A stretch of 32,329 nt of DNA from a virus. Below the pieces are notes generated by a model, which was not told where the DNA came from, ran no database searches, and saw only the letters and a list, made by a program, of their open reading frames with translations. The DNA lies in IMG/VR virus record IMGVR_UViG_3300025325_000006, positions 1 to 32,329 of that record; one strand, 5' to 3'. Shown in pieces: positions 1,655 through 32,329 of the stretch (position 1 is its first letter; each line of letters starts with the position of its first letter). The position numbers and the translations under genes were made by a program.

Positions 1655-4600
1655 TTAATCCTGTTGACTTTGAATATGTCCATTTTTTATTGAAAGTTTT
1701 GCGTTGGTAACAAATGATGTTGTGCCTATTCCAATACTTCCAGTTGTTTGAGAAAATGCCATTACAGTTCCTACGGTAGGGTTATAAATATTCAAATCGT
1801 TAGAACTTGCAGGTCTATATATAACCCATTTTTGTGTTGCTGCATTTGTAAATTCTAAAGCTGATTGATACCCATTTGCTGCATCTATTCTAATGTATTG
1901 ATTTGCTGTTGATGCTGAACTTCCTACTTGTAATAATTGAGAGGGGGTGGTTGTTCCTATGCCTACACTTCCAGTACCGGCAATTCTCATTACTTCTGGT
2001 GCAAGTGTATTATCAGTATTGGAAGTTCTGAAAGATATATAGCCAGATCCAGTCGATGATTGCATGGTGATTCTAGAATGCGTTGCGACTGTAGAACCAA
2101 AAATACCATCAACAGTCTTTCTGTTAATGTCCCAATATGCAGAACCTGTATTGGTTGCACTTTCTAAATTTAAAAATGTTGCAACATTAGCGCCACCTGT
2201 ATTACTTGATATTTGAAATTGATTAACATCTGTGCCTTTGATGTGTAGAATACTTGTTGGGGTTGTTATTCCAATACCTACATTACCACCAGTTGGTTGT
2301 AGATTAACATAGCTAGTAGTTTTTGTTGCATTACTTGTACCATCAATTGTTATAACACCATTAGCTGCATTACTGCCATAAATTTGTGGTGTTATCAATG
2401 ATGTACTTGCTGACATTGTAACAGCACTAAAAGTATTGGCTATTGCACTACCACTTATTTCTAATTTTTGAGAAGGGGAAGTTGTTCCTATGCCGACGTT
2501 ACCACCGTTAGGGTTCAAACTTAATGGTCTGGTTGTGTTAGAATTAGTTAAATTTTGTGCTTGAATCCAACTTCCGTATGGGGAAGCATTACCTACCCCC
2601 ATTGTCATTACTTCATCCTGAGATCCATCTAAAACAAATAATCCATTTGCAATTTGTCCAGATGATGAGGGATAAGATGCTGTTCCTTTAATATGAGTTT
2701 TGAGAAGTGGCGTTGTTGTTCCTATGCCGACGTTACCAGCAAGACTAATGAACATTCTTGTGCTTAATGTTGCTGCACCGGTAGCACCACTTGGAGCAGT
2801 ATAAAAATAAAAATTACCATTAGCCATTTCAATAACATTGCCATAACCATTAGCTCTATATTTCCAACCACCATTGTAATAAATATTGTCACTTATCATT
2901 ACATCACTTACTGCATATCCTTGGAGTTCTATACTTCCTACTTTCAATGAACTATTTGTTGAACTACCGGTTATTTCAAGTAAGGTTACTGGATTAGGAA
3001 TTCCAACTCCAACGTTGCCAGAAGGTAATATAACCATACTTGGAGCAGTAGTAGTTCCATTAGTTCTTTGGAAATAAGTATATCCATATGTTCCTGAATC
3101 ACCTGCAATGAAATTTGAAACACCTTGGGATGTATTAATAAGACTAAATGCTGTAGTTGTTTTCCTGTCTATCTTAATTCCATCAAGCAAATAACTAACT
3201 TCATCTTTACTTATGTGAAGCGGATTAGTAGGTGAAATTCCTATTCCGACATTTCCACCTGTTGATAATATCATTTGATCAACGTTGTTCTCTCTAAAAT
3301 GTATATTTAACCCAGTTTGTCTATTAATATACAATGATTTTCCCGGTGCACTATAAAAATTTGAACCTAAACCATTTAAACCATTAAGACTAATTACTCC
3401 ATAAGCTGTATTTGAAGACCAACTGTCAATAAGGACACTACCTGTACCAGAACCTTTTACTACTAATCTATCTGCAGGCGTTGCTGTCCCAATTCCTACA
3501 TAACCATTTGTGTGTATTCTCATTAACTCGGTAGATGTATGAAAAAAAGCGAATGGTTTAGCTGCGCTATGATAAAAATTTAATGAACTAACGCCACCAT
3601 AACCAACATTGCCTGAACCATTCTTAAAAATTTCAGAGGTTCCACCTGATGCGGTAAATATTAATTCTGTGTATGAAGATTGTACAGCACTACCAATGTT
3701 TGCTTGTACTGAAACGGTAGATGATTGTACATCTAATTTATAACCAGGAGTAACTGTTCCTATGCCTACGTTTCCACCACCTAAAACTGTTACTAAATTT
3801 GTTGTAAAATTTTTAATTTGCAACAATGTTTCAGAAGGAGAAAGTGCTTGCCAAGCTGTACCATTAGCTTTGCCACCAATAATAGTGGCTGCTGGTGTTG
3901 TATCAGTTGGATTACTTGATCCAATAATAGCATAGATATTTAATGCCTTTGTATCACCGCTACTTATTCCAACAACATTCAATCCACCTAATGTACTGGA
4001 AATTGGACCCATATAACCATACACGTTTGTTGGTGTTATAGCTGTCATACCGTGAGCTAAATCAGAATCAGATAATTGAAAAATGCCATCTTTAACTTCT
4101 AATTTGCTTGAAGGGGTTGCTGTGCCAATCCCAACATATCCAGTTTGCCCAGAAATCCTCATAAATTCAGTACCACCATCAGTACCACCTTTAAAAATAA
4201 TATCAGCACCTGCACCAGCAACACCAGTTGTGGGTTTAAAAGTTAAAGCTTGAGTTGTAGAAGTTCCACCAATAACTAAAGGAGAAGTAACAGAAGTGGA
4301 AGCGCTTATTGTAACAGCACTAAAAGTATTAGCTATAGCACTACCGTTTACTTCTAATTTTTGAGAAGGAGAAGCTGTACCAATCCCCACACTCCCACCA
4401 GATAAAATAGCAATTCTTGTAGCACCATTTAAATAAAATACCATACCATTTGGACCAGCATATGTTCCTGTTGCATTGTCTACGAATATTTCTCCATACC
4501 CAACTGTTCCAGCAGTGTTTTTAAAATCAACCTGTGAATAATTTGGTAAACTAATATATGAAGAAGTTGTTAAAATTCCAGATAATGTCAAAGCATTAAA

Positions 4601-7600: not shown

Positions 7601-10600
7601 AGGAGCGTTGACTTGTCCTGTAAATGTATCACCAGAACGATTTGCCTTTGTTAAAAGCTGAGCTGAATGAGTACCGGCAAGTGCTGCTGAGCCGAATAAT
7701 AAACTCACATCTGAAGCACCCGAATAAAGTGTATTGCCAGAAAGCACAGTTCCAAAAATCGTTGTACCAACAATGGTTCCACCATTGACAGTACCTGTGA
7801 ATGTAGCTCCACTTAGATTTGCCTTAGTTGCAAGTTGCGAATTGATTGAAGTTATGTTTGCTGGAGTTGCAAATAAAGTTGATACATCTGTTGAGCCTGA
7901 AATTAATGTTGTAGCAGTTAAAGTCGTAAAAGAACTTGCTCCTGAAGCTGTAATTGAAGCTATAGATGGCGAATTTACTAAATTAATAGTAGGATTATTT
8001 GCAGTTCCACCTGTTGTAATATTAGTTCCAGGTTGAACTCTGGTTATATCATTTCCATCATTAGTGGTTAAAAAAATATTATATAGATTTGTATTTCCAG
8101 AAAGTAAAATCCCTCCATTAATTGTTCCTCCACTAATTGTAGTTGCACTTAAAGAAGGAGCGTTAACTTGTCCTGTAAATGTAGCTCCACTTAGGTTTGC
8201 TTTGGTTGCAAGTTGAGAATTAATTAAAGTAATATTAGCAGGTGTTGCAAACAGGGTTGACACATCTGTTGAGCCTGAAATAAAAGAACCATTTGTTACT
8301 GAAATGTTTCCACCATTAACAGTTATAGCTGAGGTCAATATTTCTGTATTTGCAGACCAAGCACCTTTTGAATCAATTGTCCAAGTTGACGCGACACCGT
8401 TTGTTAATCCTGATAAAACTGAAATTCCACCATTTAACGCACTTAAATGTGAACCTGAAAGATTCATTACAATATTATTATCAGAAGTTTGAACCGTTGC
8501 TGTATTGAAAGTTGTTGCTGTTCCAAGAACATCTACATTTCCATAAATTTGAATCGAACCATTAACTGTTAATCCTGTTGTGCCTTGAGTTAAAATAGAA
8601 TTTCCCAAAACTTTATTTCCATTCCAAAGCGGAATAGTATTTGTTGAACCAGAACCTTGAATAAATATATTTTCAATATTTGTTGAGCCTGAAATTAATG
8701 TACTTGCAGATAATGTTGTAAACGAACTTGCTCCTGATGATGATATTGAGTTAAAACTCGGAGAATCAACTACATTAATAATTGGAAGATTTGCAGTTCC
8801 ACCGGTAGTGATATTACTTCCAGGTTGAACTCTTGTTATATCTTCAATTCCAGAAGCTAAATTTGAAATAATTGTTTCTAAATTTGTTGAGCCTGAAAAA
8901 AATGTTGTTGCAGAAATACCATTTGTTGATATTCCACTTAATGAAATTAAATTTGGAACATAAACAGTATTTGCTATATTCGCTGAAATATTATCTCCAA
9001 AAATAAATGTTGATTTTAAACCAGAATCAATTGTAGAACCAGAACCAACAATCATCGAACGAGGAGAGCCTGCTCCTATTATTAAATCTCTACCAACTGC
9101 TATTGAATTTTGTGAACCATAATCAATAAACACTCCTTGTCCACTTCCAATTCCTCCTGTTGATAAAATTTTTGGTCCACCAACAGCAACAACTTGCACA
9201 GGGTCACCTGGATTATTCCATGGGTGATAAATAGAAGTACTTGTAGTTGTACTTACAAATTTTTCTTTTAATTTAATTAATTCAACTTTTGAACTTTCAT
9301 TTGATGTTGGAGAATAATTAATTGAATTTACTATAAAATAATGTCCCGCTCCATCTTCACTTATTCCATCAATAAAAATAGAATCGCTGAATTTAAAATC
9401 ATTGATATCTTGTGGAGTTAAATAAATATTACAAGAAATTATTCTTGAATCTTTATCAGCAATACCATCGAGATAAGTTTTCCAATGTGCATTTATTAAA
9501 TTATTATCAGTAATTGAATCTAAATTATAATATTCATAATCAACTTTTCCAAATGCGATATCAGTAGTCCCTGTTGAAGGATGATTTAACATTCCTAAAT
9601 AAGGAAAATAAGTTTGAGTTTGACCACTTAATAACCAAGAATCAGCAGAAGGTAAAGGTAATATATTTGCAGTATTTTTTTGTAAAATCCTAATATTAAA
9701 ATCAGTTCTCCCAAAATTTTTATTTGAATCTTTCTTTCCTATTTTAGGAATAACAAATTCATTTACAGTAGAAGAACTAGATAATGACGATTCGTGAACT
9801 GATGCAGAAGGTGTTGGAGAAAAAATAACTTCTATTTTTTTCTCACCATCAATAAATTCATTATCAATTATAAAATATTCATCTCCAAATATTCTGGTGG
9901 TTGTTGTTTTATAGTCTTCATTGTAATAATCTTTATCTTCTTTATAAGTAAAAATTATTTTTTTATTTTGTTGTTCTGATATTAATTTTTGACTTATTGG
10001 AAATTTTAAATCCAATTTTTTTGTCCAATCTTTTGTTCTTAATCCTCTTGAAAAATAAGTATCACGAGGTTCTACTATTATTTTTTTTGTATTATCTTTA
10101 ACAGGATCAAGATAAAGATTATGCATGTAAATTAATGAGTTTAAAAAATCTTTTTGCTTAATCTTTTTTGGAACAATACCATTAAATATTAATGTTTGTC
10201 CGGGTAAAGCTTTTGTAGAAACTTTATTATAAAAATTAGTTCCGACAGAATATAAGTTATAATTTAAATCACCTCCTGCTCCTACTACGTTTATTTTTGT
10301 GTCAAGTCTAATTGTAACATAAAAAAGTTCTCCTGGTTGAACTACTCCAAATTGAGTTCCAACATTTCCATCTAAAGGTGGTGTTAAATAAGTTTTTAGT
10401 TTTCTATTGTTTAATATTATATCTCCATTAAATGTATTTAAAACATCTGATTGTGAATAAAAACTTCCCTCAAATCCACCTGAATAAGTTGAACGGTAAA
10501 ATTTAATAATAACATTTGATATTACAGGAGCAACATTTGTATTACTTCTTGTAAATTCCTCATCTAAAGTTATTGAAAACTGTTGAACAGAAGATGTGTC

Positions 10601-15227: not shown

Positions 15228-15243
15228 ATTGTTTTTTTATTTG

Positions 15244-15309: not shown

Positions 15310-16575
15310 TTATTGAAATATAAATGAGCCGGAATATTGATTTTGTTTCATACAATAATAACCAATTGCTAATGACATAATTATATCATCGTGCCCGTAA
15401 TTGGCTTGGTATGTTACATTTCCTTTTTTTGATATTGAATAACCAAATGCTTCCATTTCTGAAATAATATTTGGGTCATTTAACAATTGAATTTTTCCTC
15501 CATTGAAATCATAAATCAAATCATTTATTATTAATGGTTTAGAAGTAGAAGTTGTAGCGAATCCTTCAACTTGATATGCTCCACGTGAAATTAATTGCTC
15601 TATTATTGGTAAACCAAATGAGTTCGATTCTATATAGCACTTACAAACCCGAAATAGGTTAAGTGACGAGACTATTCTACGTAATATCTCATCATTACTT
15701 GTTTGATTAAATCTATCTATATATACAAGCTCTGCTCTTTGATTAAATATAGATATAACAGTAAAGTCATTCTTAAATCCTACATCGATTCCCGCGAAGT
15801 AAGTTTCTGAATCACGTGGTCCGGATAACTTATTTAACTTCGTAAAATCCTTTATGTTTTTAAATAAACTACCACCATCGACAAACTCTGCCATATATTC
15901 TTGTTCGAAAATATCGATAGGCAGGATTTTTCTTTGTTGCTCAATAAACTCGATATTTGCATACGGATTATCAATATATGTAGTTTTAAAACTTTTAAAA
16001 GATTTATTCTCAGGGTCTTTTCCTTGTAAAAAAAGTTTATAGAAAAAATTCTTTCCACGAGGAGTTGAACCAAAGATTACTTTTTTTCCGCGAACTAATA
16101 GTGTGGGTGCCAATATAGTTGTCCAAGTCTCCTCATAAACAAATGCACACTCATCCATTAATAAATGTGTATTACTGTAGCCTCGAAGAGAATTTGTGCT
16201 TGCCGCTGACCTAAAAAGTATAACCGAACCATTAGTAAATGCTATTTCACTATCGCCAGCCTGTATTTTATAGGATTTAACATATGGTAAATGTATAATT
16301 GAATTTAAAATCTGCTTATATATCTTTTTTGATTGAGAATCTACCGGAGAAACAACCATTATATGTTGGTCGTTTAGATTTAAGGCATAATATACTGCCA
16401 TATTTTGCATCAGAAATGTCTTTCCTGATTGTCTACTTGCATTATAGACTATATATTTGGTAGTCAGGTCTATACAAGTTTTTACTATCTCTTTTTGAGC
16501 CTCATAAGGCGTGAAAAGTTTTAATGTTGTTTTTTGATTTGGTTCCATAAATGTATGTGGCTCGTGTGTGAGCAT
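15310..16575 (-). CDS. terL: Terminase large subunit
   Basis: This 421-residue protein is the DNA-packaging motor. The ATPase part has a Walker A-type loop SRQSGKT (residues 47-53), a Walker B LLMDE (138-142) and a coupling motif GSTPRG. The nuclease part has AGIDVGFKND (first acidic site), IESNSFG, and a late GHDD motif followed by a hydrophobic helix; these are the RNase H-like nuclease acidic residues. Length is normal for the family. The start at 16575 gives MLTHEPHTF; an internal ATG at 16548 (MEPNQKTT) is also possible. A class I promoter motif ends 7 nt before the first ATG, so the mRNA may be leaderless or use the internal start. It works with the small subunit at 17460-17906. Confidence 0.95.
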   Translation of the reverse strand: MLTHEPHTFMEPNQKTTLKLFTPYEAQKEIVKTCIDLTTKYIVYNASRQSGKTFLMQNMAVYYALNLNDQHIMVVSPVDSQSKKIYKQILNSIIHLPYVKSYKIQAGDSEIAFTNGSVILFRSAASTNSLRGYSNTHLLMDECAFVYEETWTTILAPTLLVRGKKVIFGSTPRGKNFFYKLFLQGKDPENKSFKSFKTTYIDNPYANIEFIEQQRKILPIDIFEQEYMAEFVDGGSLFKNIKDFTKLNKLSGPRDSETYFAGIDVGFKNDFTVISIFNQRAELVYIDRFNQTSNDEILRRIVSSLNLFRVCKCYIESNSFGLPIIEQLISRGAYQVEGFATTSTSKPLIINDLIYDFNGGKIQLLNDPNIISEMEAFGYSISKKGNVTYQANYGHDDIIMSLAIGYYCMKQNQYSGSFIFQ

Positions 16576-16582
16576 ATATTAT

Positions 16583-16602
16583 TAAATAGATTAAAAAAAA
16601 AT
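16583..16602 (-). promoter_or_regulatory. Class I phage promoter motif before terL
   Basis: The minus strand reads ATTTTTTTTTAATCTATTTA, a variant of the class I motif with the standard 12-nt register, ending 7 nt before the ATG at 16575. Confidence 0.55.
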
Positions 16603-16769
16603 AATATATGTTGCTGATTAATAGGATTTTACATATTAATGTTAATATATGACTCAATTTTTAGGTTCTCTTCAGAGCTTGACTGGGCGAGGCTCCAAAA
16701 AAAGATTTACGTAAACCCAGCTTCACTCAGTAAAATCCTGATGAGCTTATATAAATTCAAAACCAGAAC

Positions 16770-16804
16770 GTAAAATCCTGTTGATGGCTCCAATATCCAG
16801 AATA
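16770..16804 (+). repeat. 35-bp direct repeat, copy 1
   Basis: Starts GTAAAATCCTGTTGATGGCT and matches 17219-17253 at 34 of 35 positions. It contains one decamer. Confidence 0.9.
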
Positions 16805-16905
16805 TACCAAGGGCTCTTCAGTAAAATCCTACAGCTCTTCAGCACAATCCTATAGTTTTACTTGCCTAATCCAATAATGTTAATAACTTTTTATAACTTT
16901 TAAAA

Positions 16906-16935
16906 CTCATCATACCTCATCATACCTCATCATAC
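16906..16935 (+). repeat. Three tandem copies of CTCATCATAC
   Basis: Exact 10-bp units at 16906, 16916 and 16926, with a 9-base match again at 17129. One helical turn per unit would put all copies on one face of the DNA. Confidence 0.85.
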
Positions 16936-16976
16936 ACTTTAAGTTAAGGTTCACTTAATGAGTAACTACTCTAAGT

Positions 16977-16996
16977 AGGATTTTACGTAAAATCCT
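16977..16996. promoter_or_regulatory. Perfect 20-bp palindrome, putative operator
   Basis: AGGATTTTACGTAAAATCCT, two decamers head to head. Four bases further on is ACTATTTATAA (17000-17010), identical to the -10-like half of the class I motif on the plus strand. This looks like a dimer-binding operator next to a promoter that would read rightward, antisense to the 51-residue gene and terS. Confidence 0.6.
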
Positions 16997-17218
16997 TTTA
17001 CTATTTATAACCCACACATACTGGAATATCGATTGTTGATAACTTTATTTATACTTGCGTATAACCAGTGCATTTACGAATGTTTGTAAATAATTTGTGG
17101 CACGATTATTGGCTGGCATAGTTATTGCCTCATCATAAACTTAGAGTTAAATACTTACTTAATGAGTTACTACATCTAAATAGGATTTTACTTCGGCCTT
17201 TGGCACCAGTCTCTAATC

Positions 17219-17253
17219 GTAAAATCCTGTTGATGGCTCCAACATCCAGAATA
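17219..17253 (+). repeat. 35-bp direct repeat, copy 2
   Basis: Second copy of the repeat at 16770-16804, with a single T-to-C difference. Confidence 0.9.
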
Positions 17254-17265
17254 CTATAATATTTC

Positions 17266-17421
17266 TCACTCAGTTTTGGATTTTTCAATAAAGTTATTTG
17301 TTTGTGTTTGAATGTTTTGAATTAGTTCGAAACTTATTTTTGCTGGCAATTCAGCAATTCCAGCTAAAATGATGTTAACTTGTTCAAGTGTTAGGTCTAA
17401 TTTAATTTCTTTACTTTTCAT
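17266..17421 (-). CDS. Small conserved phage protein, 51 residues
   Basis: ATG at 17421 and TGA at 17266-17268 give a 51-residue helical protein starting MKSKEIKLDLTLEQVNIILA, followed by GIAELPAK and LIQNIQTQTNNF. The pattern 'L-T-x-E-x-V-N-x-I-L-x-x-(I/L)-x-x-L-P' then 'L-I-x-x-I-Q-x-Q' recalls a small uncharacterised protein found repeatedly in phages of Bacteroidota and other hosts. It lies 38 nt downstream of terS on the same strand. The coding call rests on that pattern and on position. No biochemical role is known to me. Confidence 0.65.
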   Translation of the reverse strand: MKSKEIKLDLTLEQVNIILAGIAELPAKISFELIQNIQTQTNNFIEKSKTE

Positions 17422-17459
17422 AGTTTTTTAAATTTATTAATTTATTGTTTTAATTCATA

Positions 17460-17906
17460 TTATTCTTCCGAATCGGATATTTCATCTTTAAAATAATTTT
17501 CAATTTCTTTATCAGTTAAAAGTTTTGGAACATCAAGGTCTGGAAACTTTAATTCTAAATTTAGAGATTGAACCTGGATTTTACTTGCTTCGTTGAAGCC
17601 CAGCATTCTATTTATTATCTCTAAGGCTTTTAAACTGGCCATGGAGTTTTGGTTCTTCTGAGCGTTTTTGATATCTAAAAGGTCTTGAAGTATAGATTCT
17701 CGGGTAATCTGGGATTTTAGAGCCAGCTGAGCCTTTTGGCGAGTTATTTCTTGTTGAATGCTATCTTTTGCAAGTAAATCAGAAGATAAAGATCTTGCAC
17801 TATCATAACTAACTCCTTCATATGCAGACATATAAGAATGAACAGCAACTCCTGTTTTAATATACTCATCAATGAATGCTTGTTGTTTTATGTTAATTAC
17901 TTCCAT
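17460..17906 (-). CDS. terS: Terminase small subunit
   Basis: This 148-residue protein has the typical small-terminase plan. The N-terminal part is a helix-turn-helix DNA-binding domain (KQQAFIDEYIKTGVAVHSYM, then DSARSLSSDLLAKDSI). A central helical stretch follows (ITRESILQDLLDIKNAQKNQ, then ALEIINRMLGF), likely for oligomerisation. The C-terminal tail is acidic (KEIENYFKDEISDSEE) and may contact the large subunit. It recognises the packaging site and loads TerL. The non-coding block and the 51-residue gene separate it from terL. Two GTAAAATCCT decamers lie directly upstream, so its expression may be controlled by the factor that binds them. Confidence 0.85.
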   Translation of the reverse strand: MEVINIKQQAFIDEYIKTGVAVHSYMSAYEGVSYDSARSLSSDLLAKDSIQQEITRQKAQLALKSQITRESILQDLLDIKNAQKNQNSMASLKALEIINRMLGFNEASKIQVQSLNLELKFPDLDVPKLLTDKEIENYFKDEISDSEE

Positions 17907-17922
17907 TTTATGTTAATGTTGT

Positions 17923-17954
17923 GTAAAATCCTGTTATTTGTATTGTAAAATCCT
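17923..17954 (-). promoter_or_regulatory. Pair of GTAAAATCCT sites upstream of terS
   Basis: Copies at 17923-17932 and 17945-17954 are in the same orientation with starts 22 bp apart, about two helical turns. They lie 16-48 nt before the terS ATG at 17906, where a regulator of terS would be expected to bind. Confidence 0.6.
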
Positions 17955-20849: not shown

Positions 20850-20869
20850 TAAATAGTACAGGAAAAAGT
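20850..20869 (-). promoter_or_regulatory. Class I phage promoter motif before the sigma factor gene
   Basis: The minus strand reads ACTTTTTCCTGTACTATTTA, identical over all 20 bases to the plus-strand copy at 22890-22909. It ends 6 nt before the ATG at 20843, implying a nearly leaderless mRNA. A GTAAAATCC sequence (20868-20876) overlaps its upstream end. Confidence 0.7.
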
Positions 20870-21185
20870 AAAATCCAATTCTATTAACAAAGTCGTTGGT
20901 TATTAACAAAATCGGAAATACTGTATTTAAATAGAATTATAGGACAGTTAATAAAAAAGGGAAAAAGATTTTCTTCATTGAAGTTAAAAAAAAACTTATT
21001 TTTTATTGAAGTAAAAAGGAAAATATAAGTTTAGTTGGTTTTATGCGTTTTAAGAGATTATCTAACAAATGATATAGGATTATTCCATTGAAGGTTAGAT
21101 TTGTTTTTATAGTTCTTGTGTGTCTGGTGGAAAATCCTTTTTTCTTATTGAAGTTAAGGAAGAAATTTGTTTTGTTTTAAAATAG

Positions 21186-21303: not shown

Positions 21304-22350
21304 TTATTGAATTAAGATTACTTCTCCTTCTGTTGAATTAAGATTAAAGTATACTTTTATATCAGCAATAATAGTTTGCCTTTCATTTGTATTTAATCTT
21401 GTTTCTTTTGTTTCTATATCAAATATTATTTTATTGAAAAGAATATTCCTTTCTACAAAAGATAAAGAAGAGATTATTTCAGGTGGATTTTGAGTAGTTA
21501 CTTCATTCCAGATATATTCTTCTGTTCTTATTACATTATTTTCAATTGCAGGCTCTTTTTTAGTTATTGTATATTTATTTTCTTGAACCAATTCTTTTTT
21601 TTCAGCTGAATTATAAATATGTTTATTTACTCTTTTTGTTAAAATAGATTTATCTGTTGAATTAATAGTATTTGATTTATCTATATACGATTTTATTTCA
21701 TTGAATAAAGGAAGTTTTGTTTCTAAAGCATCAATTGTTTCTCTTGTATGTTTTTCAATAAATCCTGCGAAAAACTTTTCAGCTCTTTTTTCACTTATCT
21801 GTTCCGGAGTTAAAATCTCTTTTTCAATTAATTCAACTGGCTCTTCTTTTTTAATTTCAACTTCAAATTCCGGAATTTCAATTTTCTTGTTTAGGTTAAT
21901 ATTATTTATGTTAGTCTTGTTTAAATTAATATTATTTAAGTTAGTCTTATTTATACCTCGATTTACCATAGATGGTTCAGCCATAGATGGTTCAGCCATA
22001 GATGGTTCAGCCATAGATGGTAAATCGCTATATGGATTTAGCTCGAAAGACCACTGGATTTGCCCTTTTTCATTTTTAGTTCTAACTCTTTTTGCGTAGT
22101 TTTTAGCTATTAATTTGTTATAAATTGCCCTCTGAATTAGTTCAGAATTAGTGCTTCTTTTATAGATTTCTGTGATAAAAACCTTCCATTCTTTTGAATT
22201 AGAAATTAGAATAGAAAGTAATCCTTTTTCTTCAAGACTTAAAGTTTTATTATTTAAGATTGAGTTAGGAACTTTAGTAAAACCCTTTAGGTTTGTTTTA
22301 GATTTTTTTGTGGTTTTTGTGGCAATATTGCCAGATGTTGGTGTTTCCAT
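21304..22350 (-). CDS. Replication initiator with N-terminal winged helix
   Basis: This 348-residue protein resembles phage replication initiators. Residues about 20-110 form a winged-helix domain (GFTKVPNSILNNKTLSLEEK, GLLSILIS, KEWKVF, later LIAKNYAKRVRTKNEKGQIQ). A low-complexity hinge follows: three SMAEP repeats, then NKTNLNNINL-type repeats. The C-terminal ~190 residues are charged and helical and may contact host helicase or loader. The hinge DNA carries four 15-bp repeats and a 30-bp AT-rich repeat, like the iterons within lambda O. It is read from a class I promoter through a structured leader. No polymerase, helicase or primase is visible, so replication must lean on host proteins. 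Confidence 0.75.
   Translation of the reverse strand: METPTSGNIATKTTKKSKTNLKGFTKVPNSILNNKTLSLEEKGLLSILISNSKEWKVFITEIYKRSTNSELIQRAIYNKLIAKNYAKRVRTKNEKGQIQWSFELNPYSDLPSMAEPSMAEPSMAEPSMVNRGINKTNLNNINLNKTNINNINLNKKIEIPEFEVEIKKEEPVELIEKEILTPEQISEKRAEKFFAGFIEKHTRETIDALETKLPLFNEIKSYIDKSNTINSTDKSILTKRVNKHIYNSAEKKELVQENKYTITKKEPAIENNVIRTEEYIWNEVTTQNPPEIISSLSFVERNILFNKIIFDIETKETRLNTNERQTIIADIKVYFNLNSTEGEVILIQ
21887..21946 (-). repeat. AT-rich 30-bp direct repeat within the initiator gene
   Basis: Two copies (21887-21916 and 21917-21946) differ at only a few bases; a third begins at 21947 and is partial. They encode the Asn-rich hinge. Their AT content and position next to the iterons suggest a DNA-unwinding element. 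Confidence 0.75.
21959..22027. repeat. Iteron-like 15-bp repeats, candidate replication origin
   Basis: CCATAGATGGTTCAG begins at 21966, 21981 and 21996, with a fourth, partial copy at 22011. Each holds the inverted pair ACCAT/ATGGT or CCAT/ATGG. The array is closed by perfect inverted flanks: CGATTTACCAT (21959-21969) and ATGGTAAATCG (22017-22027). Within lambdoid phages, similar repeats inside the initiator gene are the origin. Here this is inference, since the repeats also encode SMAEP units. Confidence 0.6.
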
Positions 22351-22600: not shown

Positions 22601-22610
22601 GTAAAATCCT
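22601..22610 (+). promoter_or_regulatory. GTAAAATCCT decamer upstream of the plus-strand cluster
   Basis: An exact copy, 18 bp upstream of the class I motif at 22629-22648, in a position where it could activate or repress that promoter. Confidence 0.5.
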
Positions 22611-23298: not shown

Positions 23299-23599
23299 AT
23301 GAATAACTGTAGTGATATACCATTAAACTGTTTTTTTGAAACAAAAAAAGATTTTAAAAATCTCGTTCAAACACGGATAGTAATATTTGAAAAGTATAAT
23401 GAAAAGATTGAAAAGTATAATGAAAAGATAAAAACAGAGTATTTTATTTTGAAACAAAGAATATATTCAAACACGGATAGTAATATTTGAAAAGTATAAT
23501 GAAAAGATAAAAACAGAGTATTTTGAAATTAAAATGATGGAACGTCAAAAACAACTTAGTGACTTTTTAGATAACTTACCGACAAAACCAAGAAATTAA
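23299..23599 (+). pseudogene. Small coiled-coil gene broken by a 100-bp out-of-frame duplication
   Basis: The open frame from 23299 stops at 23490 after 63 residues (MNNCSDIPLNCFFETKKDFK to IYSNTDSNI). A segment starting TTCAAACACGGATAG at 23366 recurs at 23466. The offset of 100 bp is not a multiple of three, so the second copy is read in a different frame. Removing 100 bp restores a 66-residue protein ending EIKMMERQKQLSDF, LDNLPTKPRN, with stop at 23597-23599. The intact form would be a small charged helical protein (EKYNEKIKTEYF). Either the population carries a broken allele or the assembly joined variants. Function unknown. Confidence 0.6.
23366..23523 (+). repeat. Partial duplication with 100-bp offset
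   Basis: The two copies share TTCAAACACGGATAGTAATA and continue through GAAAAGATAAAAACAGAG. The left copy also contains a short internal duplication of GAAAAGTATAATGAAAAGAT. About 20 bases of unrelated sequence separate the copies. Confidence 0.85.
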
Positions 23600-23916: not shown

Positions 23917-23926
23917 GTAAAATCCT
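23917..23926 (+). promoter_or_regulatory. GTAAAATCCT decamer within the terminator of the small-gene cluster
   Basis: An exact copy that forms the 5' arm of the terminator hairpin at 23919-23969. It also lies upstream of the lipoprotein promoter at 23966-23997. Confidence 0.45.
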
Positions 23927-29948: not shown

Positions 29949-30632
29949 TTAAAGTAATTTTTTAATTTCAATTTCTTTTTGGATATCATTTATATCCTTG
30001 TTATATACTATTTCTTTTATTTTAGATTCAATATTTATAGGGGATATTACTTGTTTAAATATATGAGAGAATTTTTCCGCAAAATCTCCTTCAATGGAAA
30101 ATCCTGAAAAACCTTCTGTCTTTATTATATTCCAAAGAACTGGACTTTCTATCTTCATTGCAATAAACCAATCTCCTTTAGATGGAGTAAAGCCGTAGCT
30201 TATGGCTGTATCTTTAGCTGGGTCTTGAACAATCCAAGATTGAGTCACATAAGCATCTTTTATTTGGTTTTGGCCAAGTACTTCTGAATGTTCAAGTGAT
30301 GTTTTTGTGTGATTTGAATTCTTAAAAAATAATTCTGAGCATTTTACAACAGTTTCTTCTGAAAAAAAACAGTTAAAATAAGTGTCTGTTTCTTTGTTGT
30401 ATCGAAGAATGTTTTTATTTGCTGTCATAGCCGGACCGACAATAATTTGTTTTTCAAAATCTATTTTTGCAAATGAATGTTCTTTCTCTTTTGAAAATAA
30501 ATGAAATGATTTTTCAATTGCTGGGTCACGTACAATAGAAATAAGAGATAAATCTCCTAAAATAGAACCTTCAGCATCATCAATAACAAATTCAACTGTG
30601 CGTAATTTTTCAATTTTATCTTTTTCTTTCAT
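29949..30632 (-). CDS. Prohead protease, XkdF-like
   Basis: This 227-residue protein matches the phage XkdF-type serine protease plan. It has IIVGPAMTANKNILRY, then FNCFFSEETVVKCSELFFKN, a histidine-bearing segment (NHTKTSLEHSEVLG), WIVQDPAKDTAISYGF, and GDWFIAMKIES followed by GFSGFSIEGDFAEKF with the candidate catalytic Ser near residue 180. It would mature the scaffold and capsid. It lies between the lipoprotein gene (other strand) and the scaffold gene, opening the head operon. Confidence 0.8.
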   Translation of the reverse strand: MKEKDKIEKLRTVEFVIDDAEGSILGDLSLISIVRDPAIEKSFHLFSKEKEHSFAKIDFEKQIIVGPAMTANKNILRYNKETDTYFNCFFSEETVVKCSELFFKNSNHTKTSLEHSEVLGQNQIKDAYVTQSWIVQDPAKDTAISYGFTPSKGDWFIAMKIESPVLWNIIKTEGFSGFSIEGDFAEKFSHIFKQVISPINIESKIKEIVYNKDINDIQKEIEIKKLL

Positions 30633-31166: not shown

Positions 31167-32329
31167 TTAAGGAGTAAAATTAGCTCTTCTCTCTAAAACT
31201 GCATCTGAATTTTGTTGATTTGTTAAATCCTGACTAATTACATAAACTTTTGATGGTTTATTTATTGTACTTGATGAATTTGTTGAACCAATTTTTTGTA
31301 ATTCATTTCCAGTAAAAGCACCTGATGCATTTGGCGATGCTGATGAAGGAGAAGCTGGTACAGCAACTCCTGAACTTTCTCCTCCACCATTAAGCGTAAA
31401 TTGAGTTGCCGCTATTTTTGCCACATTTGTCGCGGCAGCAATTCCAACTGAAACAGCTGTTGCAACTTTTAAAATTGTTCCAAATGGCTCAGGAACAACT
31501 GATTGAGCTGATAAAGCATTAACAACACCTTGAATACCTGATATTACAGCAGATTGAATGGCTAATGCTTTATTAATTTTAAATTGTTGTCTTGCTGCTT
31601 TTTCTTCTTCTGCACTTCCCTTTCTTGTATTTGCCATTTTTACAGAAAAGAATAAATCAGATAAAGCAATTAAAGAGTCATTTGAAGTTTTAGCAATTTC
31701 GAACATAGAATCTTGCCTATTTTTTGCATCCTGAACTGATTTTAATGAATCAGATTCTTCTTTTGTAATTCTATCATCTTCTGCTTTTTCTTTAGCTTTT
31801 AATTTAGCCATCCAAGCTTCTCCGGATAATTTTATTCTTTCTTGTTCTATTCTATAACTTTCTAAAGAGGATTTTTCTTCTAATTCTATTTTAGCATCTT
31901 CTGCTTCTTCTTTAGCTTTTAATTCAGCCATCCAAGCTTTACCACTTTCTTTTAATTTATCCTCTTCTATTTTTTTATGTTCATCATTATACTCTTTATT
32001 TATTTTTACTTTTTCATCAGATGTTTTCTTTTCGTTAGCAATGGTTTTAGCTTTAATTTCAACTTCGGCATTATGAATTGTTGTTACTAAAGTTTCTAAT
32101 TGCTCCATTTGAGCTTTAGTTAAAGTTCCATTCGCTTCATAAACAGCTTTTAATGCATTAACTTGAACTCTCGCAGTTTCAATAACAGCTTCTTGTTTTT
32201 TGATTTCAAGTGTAGTAACATCTTTTCCGGCTGCATTAGCAAGTTTTATTTCATCATCATATCTTTGTGTTACTGCTGCACCTGCTTTTTTAGACGCTTC
32301 TATTGTTTTTTCAGCATTATCTTCAATAG
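31167..32329 (-). CDS. Tail tape measure protein, C-terminal part (split by the circle junction)
   Basis: This is the rest of the gene that begins at 626; the window's right end corresponds to about residue 167 of 553. The ATG at 32108 (MEQLETLVTTIHNAEVEIKA) is internal and not the real start. A long charged coiled coil contains repeated KESGKAWMAELKAKEEAED-like units (EDKLKESGKAWMAELKAKEE, then IKLSGEAWMAKLKAKEKAED-type), followed by a helical hydrophobic domain (ALAIQSAVISGIQGVVNALS, TILKVATAVSVGIAAATNVA) and a Ser/Ala/Gly-rich tail (PASPSSASPNASGAFTG). The last part is a usual tape-measure C-terminal module. Confidence 0.8.
   Translation of the reverse strand, partial: IEDNAEKTIEASKKAGAAVTQRYDDEIKLANAAGKDVTTLEIKKQEAVIETARVQVNALKAVYEANGTLTKAQMEQLETLVTTIHNAEVEIKAKTIANEKKTSDEKVKINKEYNDEHKKIEEDKLKESGKAWMAELKAKEEAEDAKIELEEKSSLESYRIEQERIKLSGEAWMAKLKAKEKAEDDRITKEESDSLKSVQDAKNRQDSMFEIAKTSNDSLIALSDLFFSVKMANTRKGSAEEEKAARQQFKINKALAIQSAVISGIQGVVNALSAQSVVPEPFGTILKVATAVSVGIAAATNVAKIAATQFTLNGGGESSGVAVPASPSSASPNASGAFTGNELQKIGSTNSSSTINKPSKVYVISQDLTNQQNSDAVLERRANFTP
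32203..32329. repeat. Terminal direct repeat, right copy
   Basis: Second copy of the exact 127-base overlap with positions 1-127. It should be trimmed when the genome is circularised. Confidence 0.95.

Follow-up and report, generated by a model that had tools for sequence, protein, structure and literature searches.

The gap between the two terminase genes of this virus holds an array of a short word, AGGATTTTAC (= GTAAAATCCT), whose core is the 9-mer GGATTTTAC. The GGATTTTAC array is real, under selection and unexplained by any described family that could be tested, and its conservation extends to at least two lineages of phages. We put at roughly 40% the probability that it serves a tailed phage as a composite replication-control locus, an origin or origin-like initiator-binding region in which GGATTTTAC would be the site of a second protein.

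The window, that is the whole stretch of 32,329 bases that was analysed, contains 15 exact copies of AGGATTTTAC. The mean in 100 dinucleotide-preserving shuffles is 0.14 and the maximum 1. The initial annotation had considered the concentration of the word in non-coding DNA unexpected for a random decamer. A terminal direct repeat of ~127 bp (1-127 / 32203-32329) identifies the window as a complete circular map, so that the motif counts are whole-genome counts. The core GGATTTTAC occurs 20 times versus 0.54 expected (k-mer count, second-order Markov model). The A that precedes it is common but not fixed, no conservation is seen in its flanks, and copies with one mismatch are only modestly enriched (29 versus 14). 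Thirteen of the 20 copies fall in the 3,979 bases counted as non-coding. The gap itself is partly coding: a 51-codon ORF at 17266-17421 lies inside it, which restricts the true non-coding gap, and the array proper, to 16576-17265. The seven genic copies compare with 0.94 expected from synonymous codon choice. The sites are the following:

9682: exact GTAAAATCCT copy within the gene for a 3280-aa protein
14182: exact GTAAAATCCT copy, genic
15310-16575, minus strand: terL, large terminase (Terminase_6N, 1.8e-16)
15842-15851, minus strand: AGGATTTTAC copy within terL, codons K-D-F-T
16576-17265, no strand: non-coding gap from terL to the 51-aa ORF, in which eight exact copies of the motif are accompanied by two DnaA-type boxes and two TGGCAYRRTT elements
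16623-16632, plus strand: AGGATTTTAC copy, upstream of the terL start by 48 bp
16730-16739, minus strand: AGGATTTTAC copy
16770-16779, minus strand: AGGATTTTAC copy situated at one end of a 36-bp direct repeat (16769-16804 / 17218-17253, 97%)
16821-16830, minus strand: AGGATTTTAC copy within a 21-bp tandem, second unit CACAATCCT
16878-16890, minus strand: DnaA-type box by comparison with oriC (plus strand TGTTAATAACTTT, minus strand AAAGTTATTAACA)
16977-16996, no strand: perfect 20-bp palindrome AGGATTTTACGTAAAATCCT, made of motif copies 16977 and 16987 back to back
17034-17046, minus strand: DnaA-type box (plus strand TGTTGATAACTTT, minus strand AAAGTTATCAACA)
17098-17107, plus strand: TGGCACGATT element, TGGCAYRRTT pattern
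17114-17123, plus strand: TGGCATAGTT element, TGGCAYRRTT pattern
17182-17191, plus strand: AGGATTTTAC copy
17219-17228, minus strand: AGGATTTTAC copy in the second member of the 36-bp direct repeat
17460-17906, minus strand: terS, Terminase_2 family (4.3e-16)
17576-17584, plus strand: GGATTTTAC copy within terS
17923-17932, minus strand: AGGATTTTAC copy, upstream of the terS start by 17 bp
17945-17954, minus strand: AGGATTTTAC copy, upstream of the terS start by 39 bp
20868-20876, minus strand: GGATTTTAC copy immediately upstream of the sigma-factor gene
22601-22610, minus strand: AGGATTTTAC copy, upstream of the genes clustered on the plus strand
23917-23926, minus strand: AGGATTTTAC copy that makes up the 5' arm of what looks like an intrinsic terminator (TCCTGCA...TGCAGGTTTTATTTTTTTTT), recognized by eye

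The ten exact copies that the initial annotation had reported at 16623-17954, eight in the gap and two upstream of terS, are all correctly placed, as are the further ones at 22601 and 23917. It had noticed two genic copies, 14182 and 15842, which are both there, but overlooked the third at 9682 and missed the DnaA boxes of the same gap. Copies of AGGATTTTAC in the array use both strands (7 and 3). Their spacing is irregular. Palindromic pairs at spacing 0-1 are seen in the window and, twice, in L321. No switch of GC skew occurs at the array, a result that is not decisive for origin activity. Rfam matches were found neither in the window nor in L028 or L011, INPHARED held no near DNA relative of the window, and a literature search for the word gave only unrelated matches among those listed, mostly primer or sequence.

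Relatives that share the gene order have retained the word, so that neither this comparison nor the shuffles gave the outcome that would have refuted the initial annotation. In L010-L013 TerL is 75% identical to that of the window and gene order is the same where covered, while TerS is only 37-38% identical. GGATTTTAC is clustered in the terS-terL gap of L010-L012 (5 copies), and copies in L011 end 1-3 bases ahead of the start codons of terS and terL. The terL gene of L011 carries the word six times, on both strands, versus 0.62 expected, a number never reached in 3,000 synonymous permutations. This excess indicates that the word is selected as DNA and is not only a by-product of protein sequence. 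At 3157-3816, L011 also has an inserted gene for a 219-aa GIY-YIG-type endonuclease-like protein, which separates two genes that are direct neighbours in the window. A more distant relative (L321), found by a pattern search for inverted pairs, carries 19 GGATTTTAC copies in a record of 15.5 kb, where the reversed control word does not occur. Its gene order is broadly that of the window, with TerL 37.8% and TerS 29.7% identical. Five copies are found in its 268-bp terS-terL gap, four of them arranged in two inverted pairs one base apart, and 13 in its genes, versus 1.1 expected and a maximum of 5 in 500 synonymous shuffles. The HTH/sigma-like proteins of the window and L321 are only 24% identical, yet the 9-mer is unchanged. 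Homologues of the window more distant than L321 (L014, L019-L021) showed no comparable array, and prophages with a related TerL were not found in GTDB genomes.

The window and L010-L013 are related, so that their agreement is partly due to descent; L321 and a giant phage, G001, are more independent witnesses. The 212,632-bp record of G001 was reached by an IMG/VR pattern scan for direct pairs. At the protein level G001 resembles the window only in an 82-aa stretch of the protein encoded at 29949-30632 (E 8e-6) and, in profile comparison, in TerL (1.6e-6); GIY-YIG-type proteins are similar between G001 and the L011 group. G001 has 86 copies of GGATTTTAC, 44 and 42 on the two strands, versus 4 for the reversed control. 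Fifty-five are intergenic, though ~85% of the sequence is coding, and 11 form one array in the divergent intergenic region 48925-50067. The motif is also present in coding DNA and spread over 44-101 kb. With terL at 125.6 kb, ~76 kb from the array at 49-50 kb, the G001 array is not beside the terminase. A second enriched word, AATGTACTATAC / GTACTATAC, occurs in G001 (L130-L140), mainly at 5-30 and 45-95 kb (57 copies of the 9-mer versus 0.6 expected), and is possibly a promoter or the site of another regulator.

Besides the 9-mer, the arrays proved on comparison to have a second element in common, AAAGTTATYAACA: the window and L321 each have two copies, L011 and G001 three each, a few of them differing at one base. 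Motif copies and GTTAT(A/C/T)AACA boxes number 8 and 2 in ~690 bp of the window, 5 and 3 in 452 bp of L011, 11 and 3 in 1,143 bp of G001, and 5 and 2 in the 268-bp gap of L321. The boxes are concentrated in the arrays and rare outside (positional P 6e-4, 8e-6 and 2e-6 for the window, L011 and G001, respectively), and both boxes of the 13-kb L321 locus are within the gap. When Bacteroidota genomes were searched for boxes in pairs, the search pointed to the DNA directly preceding a dnaA gene. In 30 Bacteroidota genomes of one order, the 1-kb regions ahead of dnaA contain TTAT(A/C/T)AACA 70 times versus 3.8 expected, in 29 of the 30 loci, together with 46 copies of the canonical TTATCCACA. On the strength of this match the array boxes are taken as predicted DnaA boxes of host type. 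All four arrays thus carry a cluster of such putative boxes, as a DnaA-dependent origin would, the host phylum being deduced from sequence features. The phage host is probably a Bacteroidota bacterium, judging from the box type and from lipoprotein signals of SCKK type, spotted by eye in the window and G001, which we take to denote this phylum.

An exact 18-mer, TTGTTGATAACTTTATTT, is common to the window and G001 and lies directly upstream of dnaA in one bacterial genome. It has single copies in 42 other viral contigs (44 in total), so that its identity alone means little and it is the clustering that counts; its occurrences outside the two arrays are attributed to chance, as are the single co-occurrences of motif and box in 96 viral contigs. 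A third element, TGGCAYRRTT, was spotted by eye and post hoc: both window copies and both L011 copies are within the array, which holds one of the two in G001. A non-coding region of another viral contig (L313, 3300021961_006819) has three DnaA-type boxes and its own word, CTTAAAGTA, repeated four times, and could represent a similar module built on another word.

The DnaA boxes of the window gap point to replication control. In the proposed mechanism the two or three GTTAT(A/C/T)AACA boxes would be sites for the host initiator DnaA, and a second sequence-specific protein would recognize GGATTTTAC as an asymmetric 9-bp site of monomer type, which occurs in either orientation and in some places as a palindromic pair. 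The two proteins would assemble at the terS-terL gap, bend its AT-rich DNA or open it, and determine when and where replication starts or switches. Dispersed copies may adjust promoters in their vicinity or attract additional molecules of the second protein. The latter is more likely to be encoded by the host than by the phage, since the word is identical while phage proteins diverge and an unrelated phage carries it. Its exactness in spite of 30-37% protein identity, its cost in codon choice and its recurrence in a giant phage suggest a strong common reader. This reader may be a yet-undescribed conserved bacterial DNA-binding protein of replication initiation or recombination, for which unrelated phages independently built or exchanged DnaA-box/GGATTTTAC modules, a possibility put forward tentatively, with the odds against it. 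If it holds, the 32-kb family and the 212-kb phage would capture one bacterial protein of the same host group through such modules. The pairing with oriC-type boxes would also offer a handle on how uncultured Bacteroidota phages tie replication to the host initiator, and the reader of GGATTTTAC could be fished out with a short DNA bait.

Several results weigh against this replication-control interpretation. GGATTTTAC is absent (zero copies) from the 30 Bacteroidota dnaA-upstream regions, strong enrichment of AGGATTTTAC is found in none of the 296 Bacteroidota genomes sampled (the true host may lie outside this sample), the skew does not switch, and the boxes number only two or three per array. 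Paired motif copies in bacterial genomes were mostly single chance pairs; the conserved pair of Sunxiuqinia is at the start of a coding sequence resembling groES, and those of L072, L036 and L024 are tandem repeats. The spread of the motif through coding DNA and over a large part of G001 argues against a simple origin. The main argument against the array as the only origin is a lambda-O-like candidate, the perfect 15-bp tandem CCATAGATGGTTCAG (21966-22021, 3.7 copies) inside an initiator-like gene, 21304-22350 (phrog_4707, 3e-9). No homologue of the 348-aa initiator was found in G001. Theta origins of iteron plasmids and of P1 type combine DnaA boxes, Rep iterons and an AT-rich DUE (PMC4980987). 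The arrays resemble them in that a second short site, in many copies, accompanies DnaA-type boxes within non-coding DNA that is AT-rich. They differ in that the sites are bare 9-mers on both strands, also present in coding DNA genome-wide, and that the phages have no cognate Rep in common. Strict membership in this class fails on spacing, which is irregular here and not that of regular direct repeats.

The sites could instead be operators of a phage-encoded regulator that binds GGATTTTAC and controls or blocks transcription at many places, most densely at the late terS-terL region, which we consider rather unlikely. Such a role would suit the copies a short distance upstream of terS and terL, of the sigma gene and of the plus-strand cluster, those abutting the start codons of L011, and the intergenic majority of G001, where about ten copies sit in a repeated promoter-like unit, TTGGATTTTACGTATATC. 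Repressors of Cluster A mycobacteriophages are a precedent, binding as monomers to 20-30 dispersed asymmetric sites of 13-14 bp (PMC6550527). Like these stoperators (PMC6550527, PMC9283540), the array word provides tens of dispersed, short, asymmetric and likely monomer-bound sites, many of them intergenic (20 in the window, 86 in G001 and 19 in G482), although of 9 bp. Stoperators, however, follow the direction of transcription, whereas the word is used in both orientations, only 14 of the 26 G001 copies near an ORF start being on the strand of the gene. Many copies also lie inside genes on either strand, the word is dense at one locus, and it is identical in unrelated phages for which no common repressor was found. 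BLAST, phmmer and three-sequence profiles, which small HTH/RHH proteins can escape, detected no regulator common to the window and G001; both encode a sigma-70 region-2 protein, with no detectable similarity between the two. The divergence of HTH proteins between the window and L321 at an unchanged site also speaks against operators. A reading of the 10-mer as a promoter element was dropped because of its strand-independence.

Chi sites are strict, short, asymmetric words with flanks that are not conserved, spread over phage genomes, and the Chi word is expected to be strongly enriched in the host genome. Recognition of GGATTTTAC by a host enzyme of AddAB/RecBCD type, with phages accumulating the word at highest density around the origin or packaging start, where DNA ends are formed, would fit the near-invariant word, its modest one-mismatch excess and its presence on both strands, in and between genes, of unrelated phages. 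It is nevertheless unlikely, given the lack of enrichment in the 296 sampled genomes of the host phylum, among which the true host may not be, and the DnaA boxes clustered with the word, which it leaves unaccounted for along with the palindromic pairs.

Recognition by TerS at a packaging (pac) site, proposed in the initial annotation, is the weakest of the main rivals and appears improbable. The cluster is located exactly between terS and terL in three family members with TerL identities of 37-75%, in or next to terS in the window, L010-L012 and L321. The pac site of SPP1 likewise spans the start of the gene for the small terminase, and direct repeats of three sets are found in it (PMC4737164). 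Unlike these SPP1/SF6-type sites, however, the word stays exact while TerS falls to 30-38% identity, it is clustered far from terL in G001, and DnaA boxes that packaging does not explain lie among its copies. The DNA-binding domain of SF6 TerS, moreover, has little sequence specificity for pac repeats (PMC4737164). Of the earlier interpretation, what stands is a conserved and selected site, apparently of protein-binding type. A datA-like sink that titrates host DnaA to block initiation on the host chromosome, with GGATTTTAC as an accessory, is very improbable: the boxes do cluster away from a host-like oriC, with no dnaA gene, but are few for titration, and the 9-mer would be unaccounted for.

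Other repeated features are present in the window. Promoter-like sequences, TTTTACTTTTT and, after a few bases, TACTATTTA, were seen by eye upstream of several genes near 15240, 20140, 20860, 22885 and 23265. A repeated word of TTATTGAAGTTAA type is found near the sigma-factor gene, at 20960-21160 in the window and also in L011. A partial tandem duplication at 23299-23530 lies in a 63-aa ORF and its second copy continues out of frame.
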